52,597 bases of DNA from Halocatena pleomorpha (GTDB taxonomy: Archaea > Halobacteriota > Halobacteria > Halobacteriales > Haloarculaceae), in NCBI RefSeq assembly GCF_003862495.1, contig NZ_RRCH01000001.1, forward strand, positions 1 to 52,597, given 5' to 3'. The notes under the pieces were generated by a model. It saw only the letters and a list, made by a program, of their open reading frames with translations, ran no database searches and had not been told where the DNA came from. Shown here piece after piece: positions 1 through 52,597 of the stretch; the stretch's first letter is position 1, and every line of letters begins with the position of its first letter. The translations under genes and the position numbers were made by a program.

Positions 1-135
1 CAACCCACGACAGTTGTCCCAACACAGACACCGACGGAAACACAACCCACGACAGTTGTCCCAACACAGACACCGACAGTCACCACAACACAGACACCGA
101 CGGAAACACAACCCACGACAGTCACTACAACGCAG
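1..135 (+). repeat. 42-bp tandem repeat inside the Thr-rich gene
   Basis: A 42-base unit starting CAACCCACGACAGTTGTCCC begins at 1 and again at 43. A shorter variant follows and a third, diverged copy starts near 109. The unit is a multiple of three, so the reading frame is kept. The window begins exactly at a unit boundary. Confidence 0.85.
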
Positions 136-336
136 ACACCGACTGATAGTCAGACGACATCGATTAGAAATCAAACAACAACAGAAACACGATCAGAAAC
201 AGAAACACAACCTACATCGGAACCATCGACAGAAACGGACCAGAACCGGGAAACAACCGTCTCACAGCCGACTGACGAATCAAGATCGGGTGACGATACG
301 ATAACTGAATCACGCGAAGACGAGGAAGGCTGTTAA
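1..336 (+). CDS. C-terminal part of a Thr-rich secreted protein (partial)
   Basis: Frame 1 is open from the first base to TAA at 334-336. It encodes an almost unbroken Thr/Gln/Pro/Glu/Ser-rich chain, beginning with repeats of the type QPTTVVPTQTPTET and becoming acidic towards the end (ITESREDEEGC). Such Thr-rich chains are usual as O-glycosylated spacers in haloarchaeal surface proteins and lipoproteins. The last residue is cysteine. No folded domain is present in the visible part and the N-terminus lies outside the window. The Tat lipoprotein that runs off the other end (52409-52597) is also Thr-rich and ends in the matching frame, so the two could be one gene. Function is unknown. Confidence 0.7.
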   Translation, partial: QPTTVVPTQTPTETQPTTVVPTQTPTVTTTQTPTETQPTTVTTTQTPTDSQTTSIRNQTTTETRSETETQPTSEPSTETDQNRETTVSQPTDESRSGDDTITESREDEEGC

Positions 337-861
337 CGGCTGACCCATCCATTTATTGATTGCTGTTTTCCTGATCGAGAAAATAGTTTATAATCGGTGA
401 TGAATACACGGGAATAAGGTCATGTCTCGTCTGTACGGCTGATCATGTATCAAGTAGAGGGATGCTCTCCAACGACTGTTTGTCAGCGGGGATGGCCTCG
501 TCATCGAGGGACGTAAAACCGACACGATCCAGTCGCCACGGAAGACAGCGAACGACGACTGCGTGTCTGCCGGTTTCGCTGCATACCGGTCGTGCTCGTA
601 TTGGTGGGTGTTGATATGTGGAGGGGGACTATCGCCGTGTACGTGATCTGCGTTCGCAGTGGGCCGTAGTGGTGATCGTCCCGACGGTACGCCACGATGT
701 GGCCGATGGTTTTCGAAGTTTCAGCCGTTCGGATGAGGTCGTCGTTTAAGTGGTTCTGGCGATAAGGTAAAGGTATAGGCGGAGTTTCTTGTTTCTGGCC
801 TCTGGTCTTCCGATCGATCGGACCCACATGATTTACCGCTGTGCAGTGAGTACCGATCGGT
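337..861. other. Intergenic region, mostly without a recognisable gene
   Basis: This stretch of 525 bases separates the Thr-rich gene from the RNA polymerase subunit. A minus-strand open frame covers much of 501-827, but its translation is rich in Arg, Thr and His, looks unlike the acidic proteins around it, and is probably not a gene. The only recognisable item is the short C-terminal relic at 746-829. Confidence 0.5.
746..829 (-). pseudogene. C-terminal gene relic (copy 1), ends LYLIARTT
   Basis: A minus-strand frame of 27 codons ends in LRLYLYLIARTT and a TAA. Near the other end of the window (50412-50459) another minus-strand frame ends in PRLYLHLIARTT and TAA. The DNA of the two is identical over the last 24 bases or so and then diverges mainly at base substitutions. 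Both look like the surviving 3' end of the same unknown gene, possibly a transposase. Nothing upstream in this frame is recognisable. Confidence 0.45.
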
Positions 862-1554
862 ATGTCCGATAACGGGCGTCAGTTTTCGAGGGCCGACTCG
901 GACACCGTTGCAGCGACTCCTCTGAGTCGTCAGCCCGGTGATGGCGCTGTCTCACGCGCTGCTCGCCAACGCGATGAGACGGTACGGCGGTGGGGATTGG
1001 TTTCACCGAGTGCGACCCGGATCGGGCGGGCGGACGATCCTGCCCGCGATCTCTCTGAGAACGTGCGCCGTCTTCACGAAGAGCGCCACCCAGCGATGAC
1101 GGGATACAGCGAGCGGGCTCACCGCCTCGACAAACTCCGTATCACACACGCACTGTGTACGAAACTCGAACTGACCCCGTGGCAACGCGATCGCGCGATC
1201 GGTATCATGGTGGATCTGGATCTCACAGCCTTTGGCAGCCAGCGCGCGATTCCCACCGTGGCGCTGGTCGTGATCCGTCATATCGTTGATCGGAATCGGG
1301 AACACTATCTCGGACTCCACGATGAGGAGTGGCTTCACGACCAGTCACCCGAGCGGCTCGCCGATCTGTACGACCAGTTCCAATCAATCACCGACGACGA
1401 ACAGTTCACGGCTCTCTGTGAGTCTGTCGATCTCGATATCACTAGTCTCAATCGTCTCCGGCGCGTACTGACCGAGCAACTTGAGGAGCAGGGATTGACA
1501 GAAGCAGTGTACGGGCGATCGCCCTCCCATGACCCGGCGTTGCCGATTCTCTAG
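862..1554 (+). CDS. DNA-directed RNA polymerase subunit epsilon (haloarchaeal)
   Basis: This 230-residue soluble protein matches my recollection of the halophile-specific polypeptide annotated as RNA polymerase subunit epsilon. The recognisable core runs from GLVSPSATRIGRADDPARDL (about residues 45-65) through HEERHPAMTGYSERAHRLDK and LTPWQRDRAIGIMVDLDLTA to the helical C-terminus ending GRSPSHDPALPIL. The N-terminal 40 residues are low in complexity and probably flexible. ATG at 862 is the only start that keeps the full length. The gene stands alone, converging with the copper ATPase gene 16 bases downstream. Its precise role in transcription is poorly known; the name is a family assignment, not shown by motifs. 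Confidence 0.65.
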   Translation: MSDNGRQFSRADSDTVAATPLSRQPGDGAVSRAARQRDETVRRWGLVSPSATRIGRADDPARDLSENVRRLHEERHPAMTGYSERAHRLDKLRITHALCTKLELTPWQRDRAIGIMVDLDLTAFGSQRAIPTVALVVIRHIVDRNREHYLGLHDEEWLHDQSPERLADLYDQFQSITDDEQFTALCESVDLDITSLNRLRRVLTEQLEEQGLTEAVYGRSPSHDPALPIL

Positions 1555-1570
1555 CAGTAGTGTACGTCAC

Positions 1571-4054
1571 TCAATCGGCTGTAGAATCCGATTCGTCGAG
1601 GAGTTGTCGGGACGAGTTGGTGACTACGAGAAGGCTGCTCGTCGCCATCGCTGTGGCGGCAAACAACGGATTTAGCGCCCCCGAGAGCGCGATCGGGATG
1701 GCGATCGCGTTGTAGAGAAACGCCCACCCGATGTTCTGTTTGACGCGGCGTTTCGCCTTGACTGCGAGATCAAACACGGTTTCGATGGACGAGAGATCGT
1801 CGTTGACAATGGCGATCTCAGCCGCGTCAACGGCGAGCGCAGTGCCACTCCCGAGGGCGATGCCGAGATCCGCTTTGGCGAGGGCGGGTCCGTCGTTCGT
1901 TCCGTCTCCGACCATTGCGACCTGTCCATCGGTCTGGAGTCGCTGCACCGTCTCGGCTTTCGCCGCGGGTGGAACACCGGCAATCACGGTGTCGACGTGT
2001 GGATGATCGCGGAACGCGTCGGTCGCTTCTGTCTCATCACCAGTGAGGATGACGATCTCGACGTCGCGCTGCTGCAGCGCTGTCACCGTCTCTTCCCATT
2101 CTTCACGCGGTTCGTCTTCGAGAATGATGAGTCCCTCAGCAGTCCCATCCCGACCGACAATGACGGGCAATCGACCCACAGCACGGGCTGTTGCTGCCTG
2201 CTCTGTGAGGGTTTCTGCGATCTCCCAGTCCTGCTCGACGAACAGCTTTGGATGCCCGGCGAGCACGTTCGTTTCCCCGACCGTCCCCTCAACGCCGGTC
2301 GTGTGCGTCTGGAAATCGGACACGCACTTCTCACTATGGCTCCGTTGTGTGTCGGCTACGCCGTTGGCTGTCTCCCCAGCAGCTCTCTGTTTTTCAGCTT
2401 CGTTCGGATCGGTCTCATCTGTGGCACCGAACGCAGCAGCGATAGCGGCAGCGGCAGGATGAGACGATCGGCGTTCCACTGCCACTACTGCCTGAAGGAG
2501 TTCCGCCGGAGCATCGGCGCTGTGCACCGTCAGGTCACCCGTCGTGAGGGTCCCCGTCTTATCGAAAACGACGGTGTCGATCCCCCGTAGGCGTTCGAAG
2601 ACGGTGTCGTCAAACACGACGAGACCGTGCTCCATGGCTTCGCGGATGCTTGAGGCCACGGCGAGCGGCGTTGCAAGCCCGAGAGCGCACGGGCACGAGA
2701 CGATGAGGACGGTGAGTGTGAGGAGCACTGCATTCGACAGAGTGGCACCGGACGCGACGTACGCGCCACCGGCAGCGAGCGCTACGCTCACGATCACTGG
2801 AACGAACACCACAGCCATCTTGTCAGCGAGCTGTTGGATTCCGCGGTTCGAGCTCTTGAGGTTCCAGATGAGAGCCGTGATTCGGTCGAGACTGCTGCTC
2901 GCATCCTCTCCGACAGTAATCACCAGAGCGCCATTTGTGAGCACCGAGCCCCCAACGACGGTGTCGCTCGTTCGTTTGGTGACCGGCAAGGATTCGCCCG
3001 TGATAATCGCTTCGTCGACTGTACCCTCACTGTCACACACCACGCCGTCGACCGGGATTCGTTCCCCTGCTCGGACTAGAATCCGATCGCCCGGTGTGAG
3101 ATCAGCGATCTCGGTCTCTGTCGTGGTTCCGTCGTTCTGATACCGGCGAGCCGTATCAACCCGCGCAGTGCTGAGCTCCGAGAGCAGATCAACCGCCTTT
3201 CGCTTGATCGACGACTCATAGTAGGTTCCGGCTGTAACGACCACGATGATCGCGGTGGTTACGTCGTAATAGATGTCGATACGTCCGAGAATCACTGCTA
3301 TCGTGCTGTACAGATACGCGCTGCACGCCGCGAGCGCGACGAGGAGGTCCATATTCGGGTGTCGAACCTTGAGGCTCACGTACGCACCCCTGAGAATCGG
3401 CATTCCCGTGTAAAACAGAACGATGCTCGTGAACAGAAAGAGCACGTAATAGAAATACGCCGCGTCGGCGAGCAGCTGACTGGTGAATTCGAGCACCCGA
3501 TCCGGATAGAGGCTAAAATGCATCGGATAGATGTACACGATGTACGGAAGCATCACCCACATACCGAGCAAGACGCCAGGGATCAACCGCCAGAGGATCT
3601 CATCGTCAGACTTTCGCTCCGCGATCGTATCCTCCGGCCGGTAAGCCGTGTATCCGGCGGTGCTGAGAATCTCCGGGAGATCCTGCCCAGCCAACCGCTC
3701 GGGATCGTAGTCGACTCGAACTGTTTCACTGACGTAGCTTGCCTCTGCGCTGGCAATCCCGTCGGTCGCTTCGGCAACGGTTTCGAGAAACGTCTCACAG
3801 GTCGTACAATGCATCCCCGTGATCCGGAGAAACGCGCGCTCGTGGTTTGGTGGCGGCTCATCGCGTGAACTGTCCTCCTTGTTCGTGTCCGCCGATCGGA
3901 TGTCACGCTCCTCGATATCTGGTCGGTCACTCAGGACTTCGGAAACCTCACGACAGCCAACACAACAGAACGTGTTGCCGTTCGCTTCGAGTGGTGAGCC
4001 ATCGAGGGGCATCCCACACAGATCACAGGTCCCGTCCGCCTCCACAGTCGTCAT
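1571..4054 (-). CDS. copA: Heavy-metal (copper-type) translocating P1B-type ATPase
   Basis: This membrane pump uses ATP to move a soft metal, most likely Cu(I), across the cytoplasmic membrane. From the N-terminus it shows a Cys-rich metal-binding segment (CDLCGMPL at residues 10-17 and FCCVGC at 29-34), then a heavy-metal-associated domain with GMHCTTC (Cys83 and Cys86), several hydrophobic segments, the actuator motif TGES (about 352), the CPC metal-binding motif in the membrane (454-456), the phosphorylation motif DKTGT (498-502), a SSHP motif and the hinge GDGTND. Length, 827 residues, is normal for the family. The frame extends upstream to 4141, but ATG at 4054 is the sensible start because the upstream residues are not acidic or conserved. 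It diverges from the DJ-1/PfpI gene. Substrate is inferred from CPC; Ag or another soft metal is possible. Confidence 0.9.
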
Positions 4055-4204
4055 GGATGGTACTCTCTCGCTGATTCCACGTACATTTTTCCTTGCTACC
4101 AGTCGACAACCACATCCGGACCTAATTGCGTATCCTCCCACGTTGCATTGGCACGCCGAACGGTTTTGCCTGCCACTTTCGAACCCGCATACGGTGATCG
4201 ATTC

Positions 4205-4801
4205 ATGACTGGCAAATCATTGGTAATGATCGTTGGGGATTATGTGGAGGATTACGAGGCGATGGTTCCGTTTCAAGCATTACAAGTGGTCGGCCACGAT
4301 GTCGACGTGGTCTGTCCGGACAAAGAGGCCGGTGATCGCGTCAAAACAGCCGTTCACGACGAACGCGGTGCCCAGACATACAGTGAGCTAGAGGGCCACG
4401 AACTGCCCTTGAACGCGACGTTTGCGGAGATTGACCCAGCGGAGTACGATGGTCTTGTTCTTCCGGGCGGTCGTGCACCCGAGTATCTCCGCCTTCACGA
4501 CGCGGTGCTTGAGACGGTTCGTCACTTCTTCGAAGCCGATAAGCCAGCGGCAGTGCTCTGTCACGCCCCCCTGATTCTCGTCGCTGCGGACGTGCTGGAT
4601 GGACGGACGTGTACGTCCTATCCGGGGATTGCTCCCGACATCGAAGCCGCTGGCGGGGAGTGGGTTGACGAGGTCACTGTCGATGGCACCCTCGTGACCG
4701 GCCGACTGTACAACGATCATCCGGAGTGGCTACGGGAATTCATCGAGGTGTTGGGGACCGAAATAGAGCACGGCGATCCAGTTACGGCTCCAACCGACTA
4801 A
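4205..4801 (+). CDS. DJ-1/PfpI family protein
   Basis: A 198-residue cytoplasmic protein of the DJ-1/PfpI (class I glutamine amidotransferase-like) superfamily. It begins with the beta strand [18 protein letters not shown], carries the nucleophile elbow around [10 protein letters not shown] (Cys about residue 120, followed by His), and has [14 protein letters not shown] before it. Family members act as deglycases, chaperones or peptidases in stress; which applies here cannot be seen. ATG at 4205 was chosen because the family starts right before the first strand; an in-frame upstream start at 4148 would add residues with no counterpart. It is divergent from the copper ATPase with only about 150 bases between starts, so the promoters share one short region. 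Confidence 0.85.
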
Positions 4802-5194
4802 GGTCGGAGTACCGGATCAATCCGAGTGAGTGTGTTAATGACGCGGGGCCACGCGCGTCCGATTGTGGGACCACTGGACCCCGACCGAGACCCCGATCCC
4901 GCCGTCAGCAAAGCAGTCGGTAATTTTCGTGTGCAGATACAGCGTGTCGTTCCACGTTTCCACTGTCAAACGTTCCGTATCCATTTTCTCGTCTCGCGCT
5001 GTTCGGTCTCCTCCCGAAACTGTGCTAACGCACTCGATGAATCCGTTTGTGAACGTTCGTACAGCCTGTGAGGGCGGTTCGTTTTGTTGTAGCGGTGCTT
5101 CCTATACGCTCGTCGGCTGACTGTCCCGTCACTGTTGATCTATCCAGAAGACAGAACTGTGAATAATAGGTGTCCAATCTTAACAGACGAACCC
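4802..5194. other. Intergenic region with no supported gene
   Basis: Nothing intact is visible here. A short minus-strand frame (start near 4982, about 49 codons) has a moderately protein-like sequence with ETWNDTLYLHTKITDCFADG, and upstream of it another frame contains ALAQFREETEQRET. They could be two halves of one decayed gene, but the evidence is weak. Confidence 0.35.
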
Positions 5195-5599
5195 TTAGGA
5201 CTGAGTTGTCACTGGCTGTTCAGGCTGTTGATCGTACTTATCCCGAAACTCTTGGATGAGCTGACCAATTTGTGCGTACCATTCGTTGAGCGTCCGCTGC
5301 ATGTCATCAGCGATTTCGTCGGGGTTCGTCGGTTGGTACACGTGGTAATAGCCGCCCTGATCGTAATTGATCTGTTCTTTCTGAATAAAGCCGACTTGCA
5401 ACAGTCGTTGGACCGCTCGGTAAGCTGTCGAACGCTCTCGGTCGACTCGTTCAGCGATTTCGTCCACAGTCAGCGGTTCAGCACTTGCCATAAGGTTGCG
5501 AAAGATCTCCTTGTCAAGTTCTTTGAATCCGTGAAAGCATTCGAGCAGTCCTTCACAGTCCATGTCTTGTCGGATCATTTCATTCATCGAATCGGGCAT
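5195..5599 (-). CDS. TrmB-like winged-helix transcription regulator
   Basis: A 134-residue DNA-binding protein. The centre (about residues 38-75) is a winged helix-turn-helix with PLTVDEIAERVDRERSTAYR as the helix-turn-helix core and LLQVGFIQKEQI leading into the wing, followed by GGYYHVYQPTNPDEIADDM and a helical C-terminus suited to dimer formation. The N-terminus holds two Cys close together (MDCEGLLECFHG), which could sense oxidants or bind metal. I recall close relatives in haloarchaea beside thioredoxin and DUF302 genes, as here. It is likely to control its own cluster, but no operator was identified. Starts at 5599 or the next Met at 5587 are both possible. Confidence 0.8.
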   Translation of the reverse strand: MPDSMNEMIRQDMDCEGLLECFHGFKELDKEIFRNLMASAEPLTVDEIAERVDRERSTAYRAVQRLLQVGFIQKEQINYDQGGYYHVYQPTNPDEIADDMQRTLNEWYAQIGQLIQEFRDKYDQQPEQPVTTQS

Positions 5600-6001
5600 T
5601 CTTAGTAGAGAAAAATCGGTTCACAAATAAAAGGTTTGTGGACCTGGTGCAATATTGTACACAACAGGCTTCGCTCAGTTGTCTTCTCCCCGTTCCTTGC
5701 TGTCTATCGCGTCGAGATCGACGAACGGTGCCACAGATTGGGGTTTTTCCGCACAATTATGATTGTACGGATCGCTTGTCGGTCAGTGGTGAATAGCGTT
5801 GGTTCTCCAACAGCCATTCACAGCCCACAACCGCGTTTCGTGTGATCAGAGCCGTTTATTCGATTACTCTACCGTGTTTCAGTATTCCTCATACACTGGA
5901 TCTGTTAGCGGTGATGATCCCTGTGCATTTCTCAACCATCTATATGTTATTATGTAAGTGGAACCATTATCTTTGAGTAGTTGTGGAACCACTCTTCATC
6001 T
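5600..6001. other. Divergent regulatory region between regulator and DUF302 genes
   Basis: About 400 bases without a gene. It must contain the promoters of the TrmB-like regulator (leftwards) and of the DUF302 gene (rightwards). Just before the DUF302 start there are two copies of GTGGAACCA about 32 bases apart (near 5960 and 5991), which might be a binding site. No other structure was seen. Confidence 0.35.
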
Positions 6002-6460
6002 ATGAAGCTACCCATTGATCCGACAGCGATCGATCCAGAAACCATTGGTGAAAAGAGCGCGACGCTCCGGATGGACCACGAGGAGGCGGTCAAGCACGTT
6101 CGTGAGACGTTTACCGCAGAGGGCTTTGGTGTCCCGGTCGAATTCTCTCCCTCGGACCTACTCAACGAAAAAGTCGACGCTGACCGCGATCCGTACTACG
6201 TGCTCGGGGCGTGCAACCCGGAGGTGGCAGACCGAGCGCTCGACGAGACTCTGCAAATCGGCGGATTGTTCCCCTGTAATGTCGTCGTCTGGGAGCGTGA
6301 ACCGGGAGTACAGCAGGTCTATCACGTCAGTATTATGCGGATCGCTCGTCTCCTCGGAATGGCTCCGGATACGGAGGAATGGGACGAGATCATTGCAGAT
6401 ACGGGCGAACTCGCTGAAACAGCCATGGCGAATCTCGATACTGCGGCTGATACCAACTAG
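6002..6460 (+). CDS. DUF302 family protein
   Basis: A 152-residue soluble protein of the DUF302 family, a small alpha-beta fold of unknown function found widely in bacteria and archaea. The diagnostic centre is DPYYVLGACNPEVADRALDE, with a conserved Cys, followed by GLFPCNVVVWERE with a second Cys, and a helical tail. ATG at 6002 is chosen over an in-frame ATG at 5981. It lies between a TrmB-like regulator and thioredoxin, which suggests a thiol- or sulfur-related task, but this is inference. The two Cys could be thioredoxin targets. Confidence 0.8.
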   Translation: MKLPIDPTAIDPETIGEKSATLRMDHEEAVKHVRETFTAEGFGVPVEFSPSDLLNEKVDADRDPYYVLGACNPEVADRALDETLQIGGLFPCNVVVWEREPGVQQVYHVSIMRIARLLGMAPDTEEWDEIIADTGELAETAMANLDTAADTN

Positions 6461-6545
6461 CGTCACAGCACCAACTGAACTGAGAAACTGCCTGTATTAC
6501 CGGTGTTCCGCGACGTAGTTCGAACTCGTATCGTTCTGCCAGTGC

Positions 6546-6947
6546 TTAGGACTGGGTGTACTGGTCGATGAGATCGAGCAGCGATCCTTTGTTCTGCATG
6601 CCGACAACGCGCTCTACCGACTCGCCGTCGGCAAACAGGAGTAACGTGGGAACTCCCCTAACGCCGTATTCGGACGCGAGGCGCTGATTGGCGTCGATGT
6701 CGACCTTTGCGACGACTGCATCGGTTTCGGCGGCGATTTCCTCGACTATCGGCTCAATCATCTGACAAGGCCCACACCAATCGGCGTAAAAGTCGACGAG
6801 GACGACGCTGTGTGTTTCAACGGTGTCCTGCAAGTCAGACTGTCCATCGATATGAATGAGTTCAGATGGACTATCCTGCTTTTGTCCGGTCTGCAACTCT
6901 TCGAGCTTCCGTTCGCGGATTTCCTCGATAGACCGATTGTCGCTCAT
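6546..6947 (-). CDS. trxA: Thioredoxin
   Basis: A 133-residue thioredoxin with the classic active site WCGPC (Cys58 and Cys61) after VVLVDFYAD, the cis-proline loop GVPTLLLF, and the C-terminal helix. About 40 extra N-terminal residues, rich in charged helix (SIEEIRERKLEELQ), precede the fold, as in many haloarchaeal thioredoxins. It reduces protein disulfides in the cytoplasm. ATG at 6947 was chosen; an A/T-rich box (CATAAAAG) lies about 25 bases upstream on the minus strand, which fits a nearly leaderless transcript. It converges on the DUF302 gene with 85 bases between. Confidence 0.93.
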   Translation of the reverse strand: MSDNRSIEEIRERKLEELQTGQKQDSPSELIHIDGQSDLQDTVETHSVVLVDFYADWCGPCQMIEPIVEEIAAETDAVVAKVDIDANQRLASEYGVRGVPTLLLFADGESVERVVGMQNKGSLLDLIDQYTQS

Positions 6948-7263
6948 CGTCTTATCTATGCACCGGACACTTTTATGAGTTTTGTATGGGTAGTACAATA
7001 CTACTGCTCGATGACGCTATCGACTGAATCCGAGCCCCGTGTGGCATGTCGAAGTCGATAACAGCACCAAGCGCTCTTATAACATTTCTGAGAATCGCCG
7101 TCATGAAAACGAGTGCGAGGATCATGGTTTGTATGCCGAACTACTGTGGGTTACCCAACTGATGCTGATCGCCAGCTCCTGATCGATGTGACCGTGATGA
7201 TTATCAGAAGTTATTGTAACGGCGGACTGTGTGTATTTGTTTCTTAATAAATACCTGCACGTA

Positions 7264-8316
7264 TTAAGTCATCCTTCGGATCATTTCGAGACAGAGTAGC
7301 GAAATCCGCGATCGAACTGCGTTGACGAAACGTTTCACTGGAGCAGTCCACTGCTCACGTGCATCGCTATTAGCGGCGGAACTCGTTTCGCACTTAGTAT
7401 CACCGTTGGTATCGCTCGTTATCAGTGCGCTCACGGTTTCGAACGTCGCGCGCGGGTCGTTTGTTCGTCGCCACTGCCACCATGTCCGTACGAGCAGTTC
7501 AATCCGGCGGGTGATACTTAATGCTGGTTGATCCGATAACACGTCGTAACTGTGCTCTCGAATGAGGCGGTGATGATCGGCATACAGGACAGCAGCAAGC
7601 AACACCGCGAATTGGGTTTCCTCAGGGAGAAGTACGATCCCACCAACACCGCGTCGATACAGCGCTTCGGTCCGTTGCAGTTCGCTTTGCATTGCCGCCG
7701 CGAATCCGTCTGTGAATTCCAGCCGTTCGATCTGTTCGGTGGTCACACCGTGGGATTCGAGTGTCGAACGAGGCAGATATATCCGCCCGTATTCGAGTAC
7801 GTCTTCTCGCACGTCTCGTAGAAAGTTCGTGAGTTGGAACGCTTCTCCGAGTGCTGTTGCGTGTGGAAGTGCTTGTGACGGATCGTCCGGGAGCATCACA
7901 GTGGTCATCATCCGACCAACAGCGGCAGCTGATCCATCCATGTACGCTTCAAGCTCTGCGTGCGTATCGTATCGACATTTCGTAATATCCGTCGCCATCG
8001 CGTCAATGAACGTGTTCACATCGGCGGCAGCAATACCGTGTTCTTTCCGCAAGTCAGCAAACGCTGTCACCACTGGACTGTCACTTTCTCGTTTGCCGAG
8101 TGCCGCTGCACGAAGGTGTTCTAACTGTGCTCGCTGACGGGCAGGGGATGCGTCTCCCGGATCGTCGACGATTTCGTCAGCGATCCGAAAAAATGCGTAC
8201 AACACGTACGTCACGCGGCGAATACGCCGCGGGAGTAAACGGGTTGCGAGATAAAACGTAGTGCCTGTTTGCTGTTGAATCGTCTTGCTCTGTCTTACCT
8301 GCGTGGTATCTATCAT
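7264..8316 (-). CDS. crtB: Phytoene synthase
   Basis: A 350-residue squalene/phytoene synthase that joins two geranylgeranyl diphosphates into phytoene, the first committed step of carotenoid synthesis. The first Asp-rich motif is visible in FFRIADEIVDDPGD (about 43-56) and the second in the family signature AFQLTNFLRDVRED, followed by GRIYLP. The start at 8316 lies directly before IDTTQVRQSKTI and leaves the usual N-terminal spacing to the first motif. The C-terminal 60 residues are variable and polar. It lies about 330 bases downstream of the crtD-lyeJ-cruF operon on the same strand. The product feeds bacterioruberin synthesis; a separate phytoene desaturase would be needed and is not obvious here unless the crtD-like enzyme serves. 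Confidence 0.92.
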   Translation of the reverse strand: MIDTTQVRQSKTIQQQTGTTFYLATRLLPRRIRRVTYVLYAFFRIADEIVDDPGDASPARQRAQLEHLRAAALGKRESDSPVVTAFADLRKEHGIAAADVNTFIDAMATDITKCRYDTHAELEAYMDGSAAAVGRMMTTVMLPDDPSQALPHATALGEAFQLTNFLRDVREDVLEYGRIYLPRSTLESHGVTTEQIERLEFTDGFAAAMQSELQRTEALYRRGVGGIVLLPEETQFAVLLAAVLYADHHRLIREHSYDVLSDQPALSITRRIELLVRTWWQWRRTNDPRATFETVSALITSDTNGDTKCETSSAANSDAREQWTAPVKRFVNAVRSRISLLCLEMIRRMT

Positions 8317-8650
8317 GACTCTTCTTGTAACACCGCACATCTATGCTTGTTAACGCCCATCCACAGTTCAGATATCAGTGCGGTCAGCGCCTGATCACGC
8401 AACATCCCGCGTCTCATTGCTTCTCCCCCGTCGTGCGTTGTACTCGTCCGATCGCCATGCAGTAAATAAGAACGACAGCATGATAAAATTCATTAGAAAA
8501 TAGCAATATATCATAATATTTTTATCTATATTTAAATTATTCTAAGAAGTGGTTACATCATTGGACAGACGTTGTCTCGTGACCGTGTTACTGCATGAAC
8601 GTCGCTGTTGTTCGGACCAATCCGTGAATGGGTGTTCTCACTGTGTATGA
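8317..8650. other. A/T-rich gap between cruF and crtB
   Basis: This stretch holds no gene. Bases 8470-8545 are very A/T-rich with short runs of TATA-like sequence. It is the likely promoter region for crtB and may also hold the end of the cruF transcript. Confidence 0.5.
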
Positions 8651-9481
8651 TTACAGCGATGGATCGAACGGGAGAATGACACGATCGGCTGTGACCAGGC
8701 CGAGTGCGAACAGTCCTGTAATTCCGACAGGGAGCAGATACCCAAAGTAGGCGTTGACTGCTCCCCAAAAAATGATGAATGCCGTGAGACTGTCAAGCAT
8801 AAACTCACACTGGTGTAACCGGTTGAGGACAGCCGACTGTTCGAAGCCCCAGTTGAATATCACAACGGCGATGGTTGCTGACACGGTCCACCCGAGATAG
8901 TTTGAGACCGGAACGCCGTGGTAGAGACCGCCGCTGTACGACCAGAAACCGAGTGCAACGGCGGCCGGATCGAGGACGAGGTCCATTCCGATGACAGCAA
9001 TGATCGAACTCAAGATGAGCGTCCGACCGAAGCGTCCATCGAGCAATAGCAGCAACAGCAGACAGCAATTCGCTACGATGGGTATGAAAAAGATCGGGAG
9101 TCCAAGTGGAACCTCACCGAACAGGAGTGGTTCGAGACCGACATCGTATGAGAACTGGCCGTACGGTACACCCGTGGTTATCCCGACATACTCGATACCG
9201 TATGCATACACAGTGAGTAGGATGAGTGCCGTCGCTGCCTTCCGATCGATGAGTGGCAAGAGACCAGCGATAAGTGGCAATCGCATCGCCACGACACCGA
9301 TTAGGATGAGTGATGAATCGAACGGCAGCAGTACTGGTAGTACTGATTCGAAGCTTGCAAGAAGCATAACGGCTCCAACGGTGGGAACGACGACACCGAA
9401 GAGAGCGCGGTTCTCACGAACCATCGAATCGAACGCTCGTTCAACGCGCTGTCGATTGAGCGTCACAGACGCCTCAGCCAT
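8651..9481 (-). CDS. cruF: Bisanhydrobacterioruberin hydratase (CruF-type carotenoid hydratase)
   Basis: A 276-residue integral membrane protein with seven or so hydrophobic segments. It shows the family stretch YGIEYVGITTGVPYGQFSY, then MDLVLDPAAVALGFWSY and YHGVPVSNYLGW, all typical of the CruF/carotenoid hydratase family (formerly DUF422). In haloarchaea the enzyme adds water to the C-2'' and 2''' ends of bisanhydrobacterioruberin, giving bacterioruberin. ATG at 9481 overlaps the stop of lyeJ by eight bases (ATGGCTGA), evidence of coupled translation and of this start. It is the last gene of the crtD-lyeJ-cruF operon, the order I recall from Haloarcula japonica. Confidence 0.9.
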   Translation of the reverse strand: MAEASVTLNRQRVERAFDSMVRENRALFGVVVPTVGAVMLLASFESVLPVLLPFDSSLILIGVVAMRLPLIAGLLPLIDRKAATALILLTVYAYGIEYVGITTGVPYGQFSYDVGLEPLLFGEVPLGLPIFFIPIVANCCLLLLLLLDGRFGRTLILSSIIAVIGMDLVLDPAAVALGFWSYSGGLYHGVPVSNYLGWTVSATIAVVIFNWGFEQSAVLNRLHQCEFMLDSLTAFIIFWGAVNAYFGYLLPVGITGLFALGLVTADRVILPFDPSL

Positions 9482-10376
9482 GAATTCCTCCGAACACGAG
9501 TAGCCACACTCCACCGAGTGTGAACACCAGTCCGGTGAACGTGTTGATCACCGGAAACCACCAGTATGCTTTGGTCACACTCACTGACGAACGACGGATA
9601 CTGATAGCGAGGAGCGGATATACGAGGAGTATGACGGCGAAAAACGGATGAACAACGGCAAACACGAGCGACGCTGCCAGCCAACAAACTGTACAGTAGG
9701 TGTATGTCCCTCGTTCACCGAGAACAGTCGCAGTCGTTTCGATGCCAGCTTGACGATCCGGTTCGATATCCGGAATCGCTGAGAAGGTGTGCATCCCCAT
9801 TGCCCAGAGCCAGCCACCAGCAACCGCCCCAGTCGGTGGATAGTCCCCCGTTATGGCTGCGTATGCGGTAATCCCCGGAATGATATACAGCCCATTGGAC
9901 AGCGAATCAAACACCGGCGTCGTTTTGAATCGAAACGGGGGAGCACTGTATTCGACGGCTAACACGAGGACGCCGATCAACGACACGCTCGCTTCCGGGG
10001 GAAGAATGGGTATGAATGCACAACCGAGAAGTCCGCACGTGAGTACGACGGTGACGACGAACGAGCTACCTTCATACCGAACTTCACGCTCCGTTTTTTT
10101 CGCGTTGTGTGCGTCGATATCGGCGTCGAAGATGTCATTGATCCCGTAGAGGAACACGTTGGCAGGCACCAAGAAATACCCGAGCAGGGCGAGCGGGATC
10201 GGTTGGAACAGATCATTCGCGGTCTTTGCGGCGTACACGCAGCCGACGAGAACTGGTCCGGCGAGATACAGCCAAAACCGGGGCCGCGACAGCCGAAGGA
10301 GGTATCCACAACGTGTCGATTCCGAGGGGAGATATCCTCCGATATCGACCGTGGAGCGGGATCTCGGACCTCGCAT
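9474..10376 (-). CDS. lyeJ: Lycopene elongase/hydratase (UbiA prenyltransferase family)
   Basis: A 300-residue membrane prenyltransferase of the UbiA family. It adds C5 prenyl units to lycopene, producing the C50 skeleton. The first Asp-rich motif is NDIFDADIDAHN (about residues 78-89) and the second is IPDIEPDRQAGIETTAT; hydrophobic helices fill the rest. The ATG overlaps the stop of crtD by one base (TAATG), and its own end overlaps cruF, so the three genes form one translationally coupled unit. Operon context decides between lycopene elongase and other UbiA functions. Confidence 0.9.
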   Translation of the reverse strand: MRGPRSRSTVDIGGYLPSESTRCGYLLRLSRPRFWLYLAGPVLVGCVYAAKTANDLFQPIPLALLGYFLVPANVFLYGINDIFDADIDAHNAKKTEREVRYEGSSFVVTVVLTCGLLGCAFIPILPPEASVSLIGVLVLAVEYSAPPFRFKTTPVFDSLSNGLYIIPGITAYAAITGDYPPTGAVAGGWLWAMGMHTFSAIPDIEPDRQAGIETTATVLGERGTYTYCTVCWLAASLVFAVVHPFFAVILLVYPLLAISIRRSSVSVTKAYWWFPVINTFTGLVFTLGGVWLLVFGGIHG

Positions 10377-11893
10377 TACTCACTCCGATCCTTGATAACC
10401 GCATCGGCCGCGTGTTCGCCGCTGATGAGGCACATTGGCATTCCGATTCCTGGGGTGGTGTACCCCCCTGCGAAGTACAGCCCATCGACCGCATCCGAAC
10501 GATGTGGTGGTCGGAAGAGCGCTGTTTGACGGAGTGTGTGTGCCAACCCAAGCGCTGTTCCGTTCCAACTGTTGTACACTGAAATGAAGTCCTCGATACA
10601 GAACAGCTCTTCGCAGACGATGCGGCCGTGCAGATCGACACCAGTGTGTTCAGCGATATCCCCAAGCACGAAATCACGGTACTGTTCCCGAATATCGGTC
10701 GTATCCTCCAGCCCCGCTGCGACAGGAACGAGTACGAATAGGGCGCTGTGCCCGTCCGGAGCAACCTCTTCGTCGGTCTTCGAGGGTGCACACAGATAGT
10801 AGGCTGGATCGTCAGGCCACGTCGGCCGGTCGAATATCTGCTCGAAGTGTTGATCCCAATCAGGTGGCACGATAAGGGTGTGATGGGCAAGCGGATCGAT
10901 GTCTCCCTCGACGCCCAGGTACATGAGAAACGCCGACGGTGCGTACGTTCGCTCGTCCCAGTACTCCGCGTCGTACTGGCGGGCGCGGGAGGGGAGTAAG
11001 TCCTGCTCCGTGTGGGCGTAGTCAGCGCCGCTGACGACGATATCGGGCGTGAAGACATCCCCACCAACGGCTTCGAGGTGAAAATGCTCCTGTCTGCGGG
11101 TTATTTCGTTGATTTCCGTTCCCAACGTCGTCGTAACCCCGAGTTCTACAGCGAGATCAGCGATAGAATCAACAACACCACCGATACCATCCTCCGGATA
11201 CCAGACGCCCATATTGAAATCGACGTGAGACATCATGTTGTACAGTGCGGGTGTGTTTTTCGGCGCTCCACCGAGGAAAACGAGGGTGTATTGCATAATC
11301 TGCTGGAGTTTCGGATGATCGAAGTACTCAGCAACGTACTCATCCATCGTGCCGAGTAGCTGAAACCCGATCGAGGCCGCGTTCATCACGTCACGGTCGA
11401 TCCAGTCGCGTAGACGTGGACGGTCCTCGTACACGAAATTCTCCATTGCGATCGAGTACTGTTCCTCGCTCGCCGCGAGGTACTCCCGGAGGGCATCACC
11501 CGCTCCCGGTTCGTAGGATTCGAACGTTTCAATCACCTGCTCTCGATCCGGCGTGATGTCGACCCGGTCTCCGTCTTTGAAGAAGATCCTGTAATGCGGA
11601 TCGAGTCGGTTGAGAGCGTAGTACTCCCCGACATCGCGGTCGAAATGGCCGAAAAACCGCTCGAACACATCAGGCATGAGATACCACGAGGGACCCATGT
11701 CGAAACGAAAGCCGTTTGTCTCTAACCTGGATGCGCGTCCGCCCAACTGCGCGTTCTTCTCGACGAGTTCGACATCTGCTCCGGCCTGCGCGAGATAACA
11801 GGCAGCCGAGAGTCCACCGAATCCGCCTCCAACAACGACAACGGATGTGTCAGTGAGACAAGTGTCCGTTGTCCTCATCTGTTCGAGTGCCAT
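10376..11893 (-). CDS. crtD: Carotenoid 3,4-desaturase / phytoene-desaturase-like oxidoreductase
   Basis: A 505-residue FAD-dependent carotenoid desaturase. Near the N-terminus it has the dinucleotide-binding fold VVVVGGGFGGLSAACYLA followed by ELVEKNAQLGGRASRL, and near the C-terminus the family signature DGLYFAGGYTTPGIGMPMCL. The position before lyeJ and cruF supports carotenoid 3,4-desaturase (CrtD) of the bacterioruberin route. The family also includes CrtI phytoene desaturase, and no second desaturase is seen here, so which steps it performs is uncertain. The start may be 11893 or the next Met at 11878; both precede the FAD fold by few residues. An A/T-rich stretch lies directly upstream. 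Confidence 0.88.
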   Translation of the reverse strand: MALEQMRTTDTCLTDTSVVVVGGGFGGLSAACYLAQAGADVELVEKNAQLGGRASRLETNGFRFDMGPSWYLMPDVFERFFGHFDRDVGEYYALNRLDPHYRIFFKDGDRVDITPDREQVIETFESYEPGAGDALREYLAASEEQYSIAMENFVYEDRPRLRDWIDRDVMNAASIGFQLLGTMDEYVAEYFDHPKLQQIMQYTLVFLGGAPKNTPALYNMMSHVDFNMGVWYPEDGIGGVVDSIADLAVELGVTTTLGTEINEITRRQEHFHLEAVGGDVFTPDIVVSGADYAHTEQDLLPSRARQYDAEYWDERTYAPSAFLMYLGVEGDIDPLAHHTLIVPPDWDQHFEQIFDRPTWPDDPAYYLCAPSKTDEEVAPDGHSALFVLVPVAAGLEDTTDIREQYRDFVLGDIAEHTGVDLHGRIVCEELFCIEDFISVYNSWNGTALGLAHTLRQTALFRPPHRSDAVDGLYFAGGYTTPGIGMPMCLISGEHAADAVIKDRSE

Positions 11894-12128
11894 ACCGGAG
11901 ATGAGTCCGGGAACGGCTAAAAATATATGTTAGGTATGAACAACTTACTAGTTATTGTGACAGATGATTGTTGTATGTTCTGTGATGGTGGAGAAGATAG
12001 ACGGCTATAACAGATTACTGGAGTGACAACAATGAGTCACTGATTGACAGTAACAGTCGATTCGTATCACTCACGAATGGTGATTTCGCCACGCGCTTAT
12101 GTTGCTACAAACCGAACGACAGGCTGTA

Positions 12129-25406: not shown

Positions 25407-25823
25407 TCATCCATCAGAGTCCGCATCAGCGTCAGCACCGTCAGAGTCCGCATCAGCGTCAGCACCGTCAGAGTCCGCATCAGCGTCAGCACCGTCAGAG
25501 TCCGCATCAGCGTCAGCACCATCAGCGTCCGCATCGGCGTCGGTGCCATCGCTATCAGAGTCCGTATCGCCATCATCAGCTTGTTGATTAGTCTGTGGGT
25601 GTTCAGGCAGGTCACCGGCAAGATAGAGGTAGACTGGCGGAAACAGATACACAGCGATGGCTGGGATTACGAACCATCGATTGAAGTACATCAACAAGCC
25701 GAATGCTGTCAGGCCGGCTGTCGCTGCCGCGTGTACTCCGACTCGTGTTCGCGCATAGATCAGATAGTAGTCCCAGAACCCCTTGGCCCGCGCGCGAACG
25801 GTTGAGAGTGTTTGAGTGATCAT
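25407..25823 (-). CDS. Small membrane protein with a repetitive acidic tail
   Basis: A 138-residue protein. The first 75 residues have an amphipathic start (MITQTLSTVRARAKGFWDYY) and two hydrophobic segments (VHAAATAGLTAFGLLMYF and WFVIPAIAVYLFPPVYLYLA). The rest is a hydrophilic tail built from Asp, Ala, Ser and Gly, in nine-residue repeats DGADADADS, encoded by a 27-bp tandem repeat. Membrane parts resemble other small haloarchaeal proteins I have seen, whose function is unknown. The tail is probably disordered and strongly negative. Repeat number may vary between strains. Confidence 0.75.
   Translation of the reverse strand: MITQTLSTVRARAKGFWDYYLIYARTRVGVHAAATAGLTAFGLLMYFNRWFVIPAIAVYLFPPVYLYLAGDLPEHPQTNQQADDGDTDSDSDGTDADADADGADADADSDGADADADSDGADADADSDGADADADSDG
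25414..25521 (-). repeat. Four 27-bp tandem repeats
   Basis: Four consecutive copies of a 27-base unit beginning TCAGAGTCCGCATCAGCGTC occupy 25414-25440, 25441-25467, 25468-25494 and 25495-25521, nearly identical, followed by degenerate units. They encode the DGADADADS repeats of the tail. Confidence 0.95.
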
Positions 25824-38381: not shown

Positions 38382-40013
38382 TCACGAACTGCCGAGATAA
38401 CGCCACGCCACTACGCCGACGCCAGTGAGGGTCATCAGAATACCGAACCCCGGGCCGTCGGTAGTCGTTGTCGAGGGGTCCGTGCTGGGAGAATCCTTGG
38501 TTATTGATGGCTCGGTGGGAGCTTCCTCAGTTGGGCTGTCGGTAGTCGCTGTTGAGGAGGCCGTACTGGGAGAATCCTTGGTTGTTGATGGCTCGGTGAG
38601 AGTTTCCTCAGTTGGGCTGTCGGTTTCAACGGTTAGTTTGTCTGTATCGTCGGGCTGGGACGGTTCCGCTGTATTATCCTTTTGTTGATCAGTGTCGTCT
38701 GGTTTGGGAGTCGGCGTCGCCCCCTTCTGTGTTTGAGAGCCTTTCATCACAATTAGGCGACTGTCCATGCCAACGTCTCTAAAGTACATCTGGCCGCCGG
38801 CGACGGCCCGTAACACAGTTCCAGCGGCCGCCCCCGGTTTGATTTTCTGTGTCCACACGATCGACCCATCGGTTGGGTTGAGTCCAACACTGCCGACGTA
38901 TAACAGCTCTCCGACCCGGGCCATGCCCCTTCTCAGAACGTACTTTCCGGACGTATTGTCTTTCGAGGGTTGCGGAAGGGATGTTCGCCACCGCTTGTTG
39001 CCATTTGTCCGATCGAGCGCAATGATATCGTCCGTATCAGAATCGATCTGGATGTACAGCCGCTTTGCGTCGGTTGTTCCGATGCTCAGGCGAGAATATT
39101 TATACGATTGTTTCCACTGCTGTTCTCCTGTCGCCGCATCAAGCGCGATGATGGACGGTCCGGCTGTGTTATTCAGAAATAGCGTTCCGTCGGACACCAT
39201 GGCGACCGATGGATCTTCCACGTCGGGGAGTGCCTCCCAGACGACGTCGCCACTCGTCGCGTCGAGCGCTCTGACACCGGTTTGCTCTTTGACAACTACG
39301 ATACCGTCGGCGACGACCGGTGTGTGCCCCGGCCGTCCATCACTGTTGTGTGGAACTGTACTCTGTTGTCGCCAGCGCACTGATCCATCAGAGGGGTTGA
39401 GTGCGTACACGAATCGATCCCAGCTACCGTCGAGATCTGGACCAGTCGTATAGATGGTTCCGTCAACCGCTGTCACGTCGGAGAATCCGGCTCCTACTGG
39501 TGCGTCGATCCGCCACACTTTTTCGCCACTGTCTGCGTCCACAGCGACCATGGCTGCGTGCCGGGGATCGTCATCGTCGAAAATGCTCATCCGAACCGGG
39601 GCAAACACAACCCCATTCATCACCGTTGGGCTCTTCACATCAGAGACCGCACCTCCATGAAGGCCATCTGGAACATCAGCTACGAATTCCCACTGTGTGG
39701 TGCCGTCGGCTGCATCGAATGCGGCCAGTTTGTCGCCAGCGCCGTACACAGTTCCGTCAACGACGCAAACTGAATCACGCTCGTGAAACCCGGCGAAGTG
39801 ACCTATCCAGGCGTTCGTGATCTCTCCCGTCGGACCGACGCCGTCTGCGAAATGTGCGTTGTAGGCTGTGTTCCCCTTCGGGTGTGTCCACTGCTCTTCG
39901 CCAATCGCGTCCGATGTCGCCTGTATGGGTGTGCTCTTACTGTAGAGGACACTAGCGGCAGTCACTGCGCCAACTGTTCCGGAGAGAAACGATCGTCGAC
40001 TGATTTGCCCCAT
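38382..40013 (-). CDS. Secreted PQQ-type beta-propeller protein with PGF-CTERM anchor
   Basis: A 543-residue surface protein. A Tat signal lies at the start (SRRSFLSG, Arg6-Arg7, then the hydrophobic GTVGAVTAASVLYS). Residues about 40-430 are repeated beta-propeller blades of the PQQ/BamB type with W-turns such as ALDATSGDVVWEALPD, AATGEQQWKQSYK and RTNGNKRWRTSLP. A Thr/Ser/Asp-rich spacer with two near-identical blocks (TEEPSTTKDSPSTASS-like) follows, and the end carries PGF, a hydrophobic stretch and basic tail WRYLGSS, the archaeosortase A signal. It is thus likely to be processed and lipid-anchored at the cell surface. ATG at 40013 has GGAG six bases upstream; a Met four codons earlier exists. 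Function unknown; it could assemble envelope proteins or bind a ligand. Confidence 0.85.
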   Translation of the reverse strand: MGQISRRSFLSGTVGAVTAASVLYSKSTPIQATSDAIGEEQWTHPKGNTAYNAHFADGVGPTGEITNAWIGHFAGFHERDSVCVVDGTVYGAGDKLAAFDAADGTTQWEFVADVPDGLHGGAVSDVKSPTVMNGVVFAPVRMSIFDDDDPRHAAMVAVDADSGEKVWRIDAPVGAGFSDVTAVDGTIYTTGPDLDGSWDRFVYALNPSDGSVRWRQQSTVPHNSDGRPGHTPVVADGIVVVKEQTGVRALDATSGDVVWEALPDVEDPSVAMVSDGTLFLNNTAGPSIIALDAATGEQQWKQSYKYSRLSIGTTDAKRLYIQIDSDTDDIIALDRTNGNKRWRTSLPQPSKDNTSGKYVLRRGMARVGELLYVGSVGLNPTDGSIVWTQKIKPGAAAGTVLRAVAGGQMYFRDVGMDSRLIVMKGSQTQKGATPTPKPDDTDQQKDNTAEPSQPDDTDKLTVETDSPTEETLTEPSTTKDSPSTASSTATTDSPTEEAPTEPSITKDSPSTDPSTTTTDGPGFGILMTLTGVGVVAWRYLGSS

Positions 40014-40025
40014 TTGAATCTCCAT

Positions 40026-47915: not shown

Positions 47916-49826
47916 ATGAAACGAAAACGACTATCAACTGTTGCGGTCCTTGCTGTCCTTCTCGTCTCAGCCGTGGCTATCGGTGTCTCTCCGTCGGTGG
48001 TAGCGACCGATGGCGACGACGCAGGCGACGATAAACCTACTGCTACGAAGCTCACGCCGGGAAGTACAGCGACTGATGCTATCATTGCGGGAGATGTCGA
48101 CTGGTATTCGTTCGATGCGGAGAAGGGTGATCGACTGTTCGTCGAGCTCACCGCGCTGACCGAGGAGTACGACCAGCTCCGGATGGAGTTCTACGCGCCG
48201 GACGGGTCGGAGCTCGGTGAGGTCAGCGAATCGACCGGCAATCCACAGAAACTCGACGTTGACCGGGGACCCACAGCGTGGGGCGGTGACATTGCGCCCG
48301 CCTCGGGGACGTACTTCGTGAAAATCGAGCCGTGGGTGAGCGACGGTACCACGTCAACCGAGTACGAGCTCGCGGTGGAAACGAAATCCCTGGACGCTGA
48401 CCGACCCGGAGACACGCCCCCGACCGCTGTCTCCATCGACGGCAACACGACCGTCTCGGGAACGATGAGCGGCCAGGACGTCGATACGTACGCGATCGAC
48501 CTGACCGAGGGCGAAACGATCGAGGCGTCGATCGAATCCGAAACCGACGCGTTGGGCAACATCCAGCTCGTCGATCCATCGGCCTCGGAGTACATGCACA
48601 ACGGGTACAACGAACAGTACGATCTCTCTGGAGGCCCGGCGCTGAACGACGCGTTCAGTTATATGGCATCGGAGAATGCAACGCACTACCTCCGCGTGTA
48701 TCCCGGAAACAACAGCAAAGAGTGGTTTACGCGTTCGTCATCGTACGAGTTGTCGGTGTCGGTCAGCTCGAACGAATCGAACATCCCTGCTGACGAGGTG
48801 GGTGACAGTCGGAGCGAGGCAACCACGATGGATGCGAACGCCACCACGTCGGGGACGATTTTCGGCACCGACGCAGACTGGTATGCGTTCGATGCGTCCG
48901 CCGGCCAGTCGATCGGTGTGGAACTGACTGCGATAACGGCGAACGAGGAGGACCTCGTGTTCTCCCTGTACAATCCGGACGGCGACGAGATCGGTGCGTA
49001 TCCGAACGATGCACTGAATCCGGCCTATCATACCGACCGTATCGCAACGGGTCCGGGGACGGGTGGTGGAGACACCGCCATCCAATCCGGGACGTACTAC
49101 GTGAAGGTGAGTGGCGCCGGGCCAGTCTCTTCGACCGCGTACAATTTGTCTGTACAAACACGCCCCCTCGACGATCACGAACCGAACGAACAACCATCGA
49201 TGGCCAGCTCAATCGGTGACAATGGGTCTGTTGATGGAGTCATGACGGGTTCGGATGCGGACACCTACAAGATCGACCTCGACAAAGGCGATCGGGTGCG
49301 TGCGACGCTCGACCGTCGTGGTGGATTCGGGATCCATACGGAGCTCCTCGAGCCCGATACCCCGGACACACTGCAATCAGAATCCGAATGGGAATATGAC
49401 GTGTCCGAATGGACGGTTGAGGGATTCAACGCCACCATAAACGAGAGCGGTACCTACTACGTTCGCGTCTATCCGGTGGAGAACGGGGTTTACTCGTTCT
49501 TCGAGACCGTCGATTACACGCTCTCGGTGTCGGTTGCTGGGAACGGCGAAGAGTCGGACACCGAAGAAACGCCGGACGACGAGACTGAAACACCAACGGA
49601 AGACACCGATACGCAACCGAAGGACACGGAAACGGAGACCGAAGGCACACAGACACCAACGGAGGACACTCCAACCGATGAGCAGATGACACCGGAGAGC
49701 ACGCCAGACGATTCGACACAATCGAATGGCGATAGTGTCACGAAGAGTGATGATGCCGGCCAGCCCGACAGCGTCGACACCGAATCGAACGATTCGGAAA
49801 GAGAGGTTTCCGCACCGCCGTGTTGA
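47916..49826 (+). CDS. Secreted protein with four PPC (bacterial pre-peptidase C-terminal) domains and a Cys end
   Basis: A 636-residue exported protein. The signal peptide is MKRKRLSTVAVLAVLLVSAV and ends near VVATDGD. Four beta-sandwich repeats follow, at about 45-155, 165-285, 295-420 and 425-535, each with a start of the type VDWYSFDAEKGDRLFVELT (also TDADWYAFDASAGQSIGVEL and SDADTYKIDLDKGDRVRATL) and an end like SGTYYVRVYPVE. This is the PPC domain, found C-terminal to proteases and in binding proteins. A Thr/Glu/Asp spacer of 90 residues ends VSAPPC, without the PGF signal. No catalytic domain is present, so it probably binds sugar or protein at the surface. The last Cys parallels the Thr-rich protein at 1-336. 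Confidence 0.85.
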   Translation: MKRKRLSTVAVLAVLLVSAVAIGVSPSVVATDGDDAGDDKPTATKLTPGSTATDAIIAGDVDWYSFDAEKGDRLFVELTALTEEYDQLRMEFYAPDGSELGEVSESTGNPQKLDVDRGPTAWGGDIAPASGTYFVKIEPWVSDGTTSTEYELAVETKSLDADRPGDTPPTAVSIDGNTTVSGTMSGQDVDTYAIDLTEGETIEASIESETDALGNIQLVDPSASEYMHNGYNEQYDLSGGPALNDAFSYMASENATHYLRVYPGNNSKEWFTRSSSYELSVSVSSNESNIPADEVGDSRSEATTMDANATTSGTIFGTDADWYAFDASAGQSIGVELTAITANEEDLVFSLYNPDGDEIGAYPNDALNPAYHTDRIATGPGTGGGDTAIQSGTYYVKVSGAGPVSSTAYNLSVQTRPLDDHEPNEQPSMASSIGDNGSVDGVMTGSDADTYKIDLDKGDRVRATLDRRGGFGIHTELLEPDTPDTLQSESEWEYDVSEWTVEGFNATINESGTYYVRVYPVENGVYSFFETVDYTLSVSVAGNGEESDTEETPDDETETPTEDTDTQPKDTETETEGTQTPTEDTPTDEQMTPESTPDDSTQSNGDSVTKSDDAGQPDSVDTESNDSEREVSAPPC

Positions 49827-52307: not shown

Positions 52308-52408
52308 GACAATATATATTAGCGTGGAAATATTACCATCATCGTAATGAGATATCATTGTATTGTTCCTGAATCTGACATCGTTAGCCATCATCGAGAG
52401 AGTGAGTC

Positions 52409-52597
52409 ATGACTGTATCTCGTCGATCGATGCTTCACACTGTAGGCGGACTCCTGCTGACGACCACTACTGCGGGGTGTACCGATGGGCTATTCGAAGG
52501 CAAAACCCCAACCCAAACGGCGACTTCTGAATCAACAACCCAAACGGCGACTTCTGAATCAACAACCCAAACGGCGACTTCTGAATCAACAACCCAA
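52409..52597 (+). CDS. Tat-exported lipoprotein with Thr-rich tail (partial, runs off the end)
   Basis: The first 63 residues are visible. The twin-Arg signal is TVSRRSMLHTVGGLLL and the lipobox is TTAGC (Cys24), so the mature protein should be lipid-anchored outside the cell. It then turns into Thr/Ser/Gln repeats (TATSESTTQ). The frame is open at the last base. Its first in-window counterpart, the Thr-rich C-terminus at 1-336, is in a compatible frame. Function unknown. Confidence 0.75.
   Translation, partial: MTVSRRSMLHTVGGLLLTTTTAGCTDGLFEGKTPTQTATSESTTQTATSESTTQTATSESTTQ
52517..52597 (+). repeat. 27-bp tandem repeat at the window end
   Basis: Three exact copies of a 27-base unit starting ACGGCGACTTCTGAATCAAC occupy 52517-52543, 52544-52570 and 52571-52597. 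The last copy ends on the last base of the window. Confidence 0.95.

Follow-up and report, generated by a model that had tools for sequence, protein, structure and literature searches.

The window analysed here is a stretch of 52,597 bases and coincides with the complete contig C1 of a haloarchaeal draft assembly, which has 61 contigs and a size of 3.65 Mb. Since both of its ends lie in tandem repeats that encode Thr-rich protein, the question raised by this locus is whether the ends are two halves of one gene or parts of two genes. An earlier note on the sequence of the window had taken them for a single Thr-rich gene, and had suggested either a contig break at a repeat or a circular replicon of about 52.6 kb. 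The analysis below indicates that, at both ends, the draft assembly broke off inside low-complexity tandem repeats, so that a contig broken at a repeat is a correct description of each end, whereas the single gene and the circle are not. The coordinates of the features are collected in Table 1.

Table 1. Features of the window and of the contigs that hold the remaining parts of its two terminal genes
Feature	Position	Strand	Remarks
Tail of secreted PPC-domain protein with Thr-rich stalk; last 111 codons and stop; terminal Cys codon 331-333	1..336	+	
Imperfect Thr-codon repeats (42/66 bp) of the PPC stalk	1..143	+	87-89% match; QTPTETQPTTVVPT-like units
Head of the PPC gene	contig C16 130934-131584		repeat match and orthologues
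Block colinear with the Halocatena salina 532-kb plasmid	796..11937	+	PPC gene and C16 flank upstream, in the same order, in the plasmid
636-aa multi-PPC-domain protein with acidic Thr-rich stalk; sole Cys is the last residue (..REVSAPPC; codon 49821-49823)	47916..49826	+	
N-terminal part of Tat lipoprotein, first 63 codons (MTVSRRSMLHTVGGLLLTTTTAGC...)	52409..52597	+	truncated by contig end
27-bp tandem repeat in 3.3 exact copies; codes for the TQTATSEST spacer units that follow the lipobox	52509..52597	+	last 89 bases
Remainder of the right-end lipoprotein gene	contig C4 85970-86820	-	

The right end and contig C4

The gene at the right end opens with an ATG at 52409 and runs through 63 whole codons up to the final base of the window. 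As read from the sequence (MTVSRRSMLHTVGGLLLTTTTAGC), its product carries a twin-arginine signal (SRRSML) and then a lipobox Cys (TAGC). The earlier note had placed three exact 27-bp repeats in the last 81 bases; the repeats are real and exact, but their actual extent is 89 bases. When the genome was searched for the 27-bp unit with up to 2 mismatches allowed, only three copies in C1 and one at the last bases of C4 were found. Furthermore, the last 44 bases of the window have one other exact occurrence in the genome, which is the end of C4 in reversed orientation, and the suffix-prefix overlap is 44 bases.

Past the repeat, the reading frame on C4 stays open for ~270 codons, and the product of the gene joined at the overlap is 332 aa long. 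An intact orthologue of 331 aa (G006:C3:135892-136884) has the signal, the lipobox, three spacer repeats and the body all as in the joined gene; both the twin-arginine signal and the lipobox Cys are kept, and the identity to the C4 part is 92%. Moreover, window 52311-52597 and the end of C4 map side by side on G006:C3 in a DNA alignment. The right end encodes the N-terminal portion of a Tat lipoprotein whose gene continues on contig C4.

On its sequence, the product of the right-end gene is a Tat lipoprotein, with a lipid predicted on the lipobox Cys. It shares the twin-arginine signal and the lipobox with the haloarchaeal Tat lipoproteins, but differs in that its folded part belongs to no confident Pfam family (FlgD_ig only, below the cut-off). 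No NCBIfam family was found for this lipoprotein or for the PPC protein at the left end.

With respect to the genomes compared, the main contigs G002:C1 and G006:C1 (both of length 3915224) have the same genes with identical coordinates, and the two genomes are therefore not independent. G006 has additional plasmids, one of which carries the intact lipoprotein.

The left end and contig C16

At the left end, frame 1 is open from the first base onward and is closed by a stop at 334-336. The 42-bp repeats that had been described from base 1 are real, although they proved to be imperfect, with units of 42/66 bp over ~143 bases. The terminal ~235 bases of C16 are the only other place in the genome that has the left repeat, and the repeats at window 1-143 are 94% identical to C16:131424-131559. 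This part of C16 encodes a Sec-type signal, a PPC-like domain and then the repeat, and its open frame runs off the contig end. Against PF04151, the C16 head scored 21.1 bits (E 0.00058), below the cut-off of 25.9, and the orthologue of Halocatena salina scored 28.1 bits, above it.

Two intact orthologues, G003:C2:367736-368833 (365 aa) and G005:C2:500365-501514 (383 aa), each have a C16-type head, long Thr-rich repeats and a window-like tail. When the tail of the window was aligned with the tail of either orthologue, none of 500 shuffles reached the alignment score in each case. The left end encodes the C-terminal stalk of a PPC-domain protein of the Sec type, the start of which lies on contig C16. 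C16 and the window have no exact overlap, and a few repeat units are therefore probably missing between the two; an extra base is present within the last ~15 bases of C16.

Several other genes were found to be cut or to carry repeats. The left end of C16 (G000:C16:3-717) likewise interrupts a PPC-type paralogue within its Thr-rich stalk. One further PPC gene is split between the right ends of G000:C2 (65079-66204) and C22 (156141-157152), despite a 158-base exact overlap, and its C22 half ends in ..DQSEC. Within the window, a 138-aa ORF of no Pfam family (25407-25823, minus strand) contains a 27-bp tandem repeat at 25414-25541 (4.7 copies, 97% match), and a PQQ-type beta-propeller protein (38382-40025, minus strand) has an 81-bp repeat at 38452-38624 that codes for a portion of its C-terminal region.

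Contig order and the rival explanations

Among named sequences, the window is closest to a plasmid of Halocatena salina AD-1 (532,509 bp), with 85% identity across most of window 814-11937. In Halocatena salina, the C16 flank, the PPC gene and the sequence from window 796 onward are colinear and all on one strand; however, ~4.6 kb (three genes) separates the PPC gene from window 796, and the local order is not identical. The intact left-end orthologue in this plasmid is MW046_RS14560 (WP_247994887.1, hypothetical protein). Its head is 75% identical over 161 aa, and its Thr-rich stalk and terminal Cys are alike, whereas it differs from the left-end gene in the number and sequence of the stalk repeats and in the three genes that separate it from the RNA polymerase epsilon gene. 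We infer that G003 is Halocatena salina, the left-end orthologue being at the same place in both, and that the genome of the window belongs to Halocatena too.

The window is almost certainly a whole draft contig whose ends were cut at repeats in two different surface-protein genes, the right one continuing on C4 and the left one starting on C16, which gives the order C16 - window - C4. The C16-window join was based on the identity of the repeats, on orthologues and on the order of genes, in a comparison of assembled sequences and not of reads. The window ends are an ordinary assembly break; as with other short-read contig ends at tandem repeats, they fall exactly in the repeats, the partner contigs C4 and C16 stop in the matching repeats, and there is no essential difference.

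That the window could instead be a nearly complete circle of ~52.6 kb, with one gene split in a long Thr-rich array at its ends, was suggested by the Thr-rich repeats at each end and by the compatible reading frames. The frames do fit if the ends are joined (63 whole codons on the right; frame 1 on the left). However, haloarchaeal surface proteins commonly have Thr-rich spacers, and a phase match is expected in 1 of 3 cases for unrelated ends; therefore, neither supports one gene. The repeat units differ, being TQTATSEST on the right and QTPTETQPTTVVPT-like on the left, and an exact overlap of at least 4 bases between the window suffix and its own prefix was absent. The sole other copy of each repeat sits on a different contig, the two separate genes each have intact orthologues in sister genomes, and the self-joined product of 174 aa is unlike either of these. 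We thus give the circle with one gene scarcely any chance at all. A complete circular replicon was rejected, since the ends do not overlap one another and continue on C4 and C16. The single Tat lipoprotein with a Cys at both ends, which the earlier note had derived from the join, is a chimera that takes its lipobox Cys from one protein and its C-terminal Cys from another. As the outcome that would speak against its proposal, the same note had named ends that lead away into unrelated sequence, and this is what the assembly and the relatives display, in sequence data other than reads.

It is also conceivable that the right end leads to C4, but that C16 and the left end of the window belong to two paralogues with similar stalks. 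The genome has several PPC stalk paralogues, and the overlap between C16 and the window is inexact, as this explanation would have it. Nevertheless, the left repeat is absent from all other contigs, the C16 head and the window tail match the head and the tail of the same Halocatena salina orthologue, and the flanks are colinear on both sides. Two paralogues are accordingly very improbable, if a little less so than the circle.

With one gene at each end, the true order C16 - window - C4 would lie on a larger replicon, whose left part at least probably corresponds to the 532-kb Halocatena salina plasmid. Both repeats may code for extracellular spacers or stalks, rich in Thr, that keep a folded domain at a distance from the membrane, and slippage of the repeats would vary the length of the spacer or stalk. 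The result orders three draft contigs and keeps a spurious plasmid circle and a spurious chimeric protein out of the records.

A terminal Cys in PPC stalk proteins

The tail of the left-end gene (..TESREDEEGC) has no PGF motif and no hydrophobic segment, and is thus not of the PGF-CTERM type. Its terminal Cys is kept in both intact orthologues (..DEDQEDC and ..TQDEEGC). The C-terminal plan of the 636-aa protein in the window is alike.

When homologues were compared, the last residue was Cys in nearly all of the Halocatena PPC proteins that have an acidic or Thr-rich stalk and lack a PGF-CTERM or hydrophobic tail. Besides the two proteins of the window, those with a final Cys were found in G000:C22, G001 (two), G002 (three), G003 (three), G004 (two) and G005 (two); in this survey, G002 and G006 have a chromosome in common. 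The exceptions were G003:C3, with a Cys three from the end, and G005:C1:1197896, with three Cys near the end. The remaining Cys residues listed for these open frames are near the N terminus, within the signal region or ahead of it.

In Halocatena and related genera, other PPC stalk proteins finish in PGF and a membrane segment, as PGF-CTERM/archaeosortase substrates do, and the PGF-CTERM paralogues have no Cys close to the end. In contrast, neither PGF nor a membrane segment is present at the C-terminus of the left-end gene product and its Cys-ending relatives, which have the final Cys instead. In genus g35, which belongs to another family (f14) than Halocatena, six homologues have a Cys exactly five residues from the end (CITVE, CITVV, CITID, CKTDS, CGDDR and CGIDD), and some of these six carry additional Cys elsewhere. 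The PPC homologues of genera g26 and g59 use PGF-CTERM.

In 1.99 Mb of G003, a final Cys was present in 3 of 28 stalk-tailed genes versus 16 of 1719 genes that have no such tail (Fisher p = 0.003), a comparison made after the pattern was seen, with ORFs from a simple script and with paralogues that are not independent. In the same 1.99 Mb, no sign was found that the terminal Cys extends to stalk proteins other than PPC proteins, as all three Cys-ending stalk-tailed genes are PPC genes.

An anchor role is suggested by the exactness with which the Cys is placed and by its exchange with PGF-CTERM. We speculate, at somewhat less than an even chance, that the left-end terminal Cys is part of a so far undescribed signal for C-terminal anchoring or cross-linking in archaeal surface proteins. 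The Cys could be lipidated through a thioether or a thioester, or could take part in intermolecular disulfides. In the literature that was searched, nothing relevant on a C-terminal Cys anchor in haloarchaea came up. If the speculation is true, the final Cys in these fast-changing stalk tails, at the place of the archaeosortase signal of related proteins, would represent a new mode by which archaea hold proteins at their surface.
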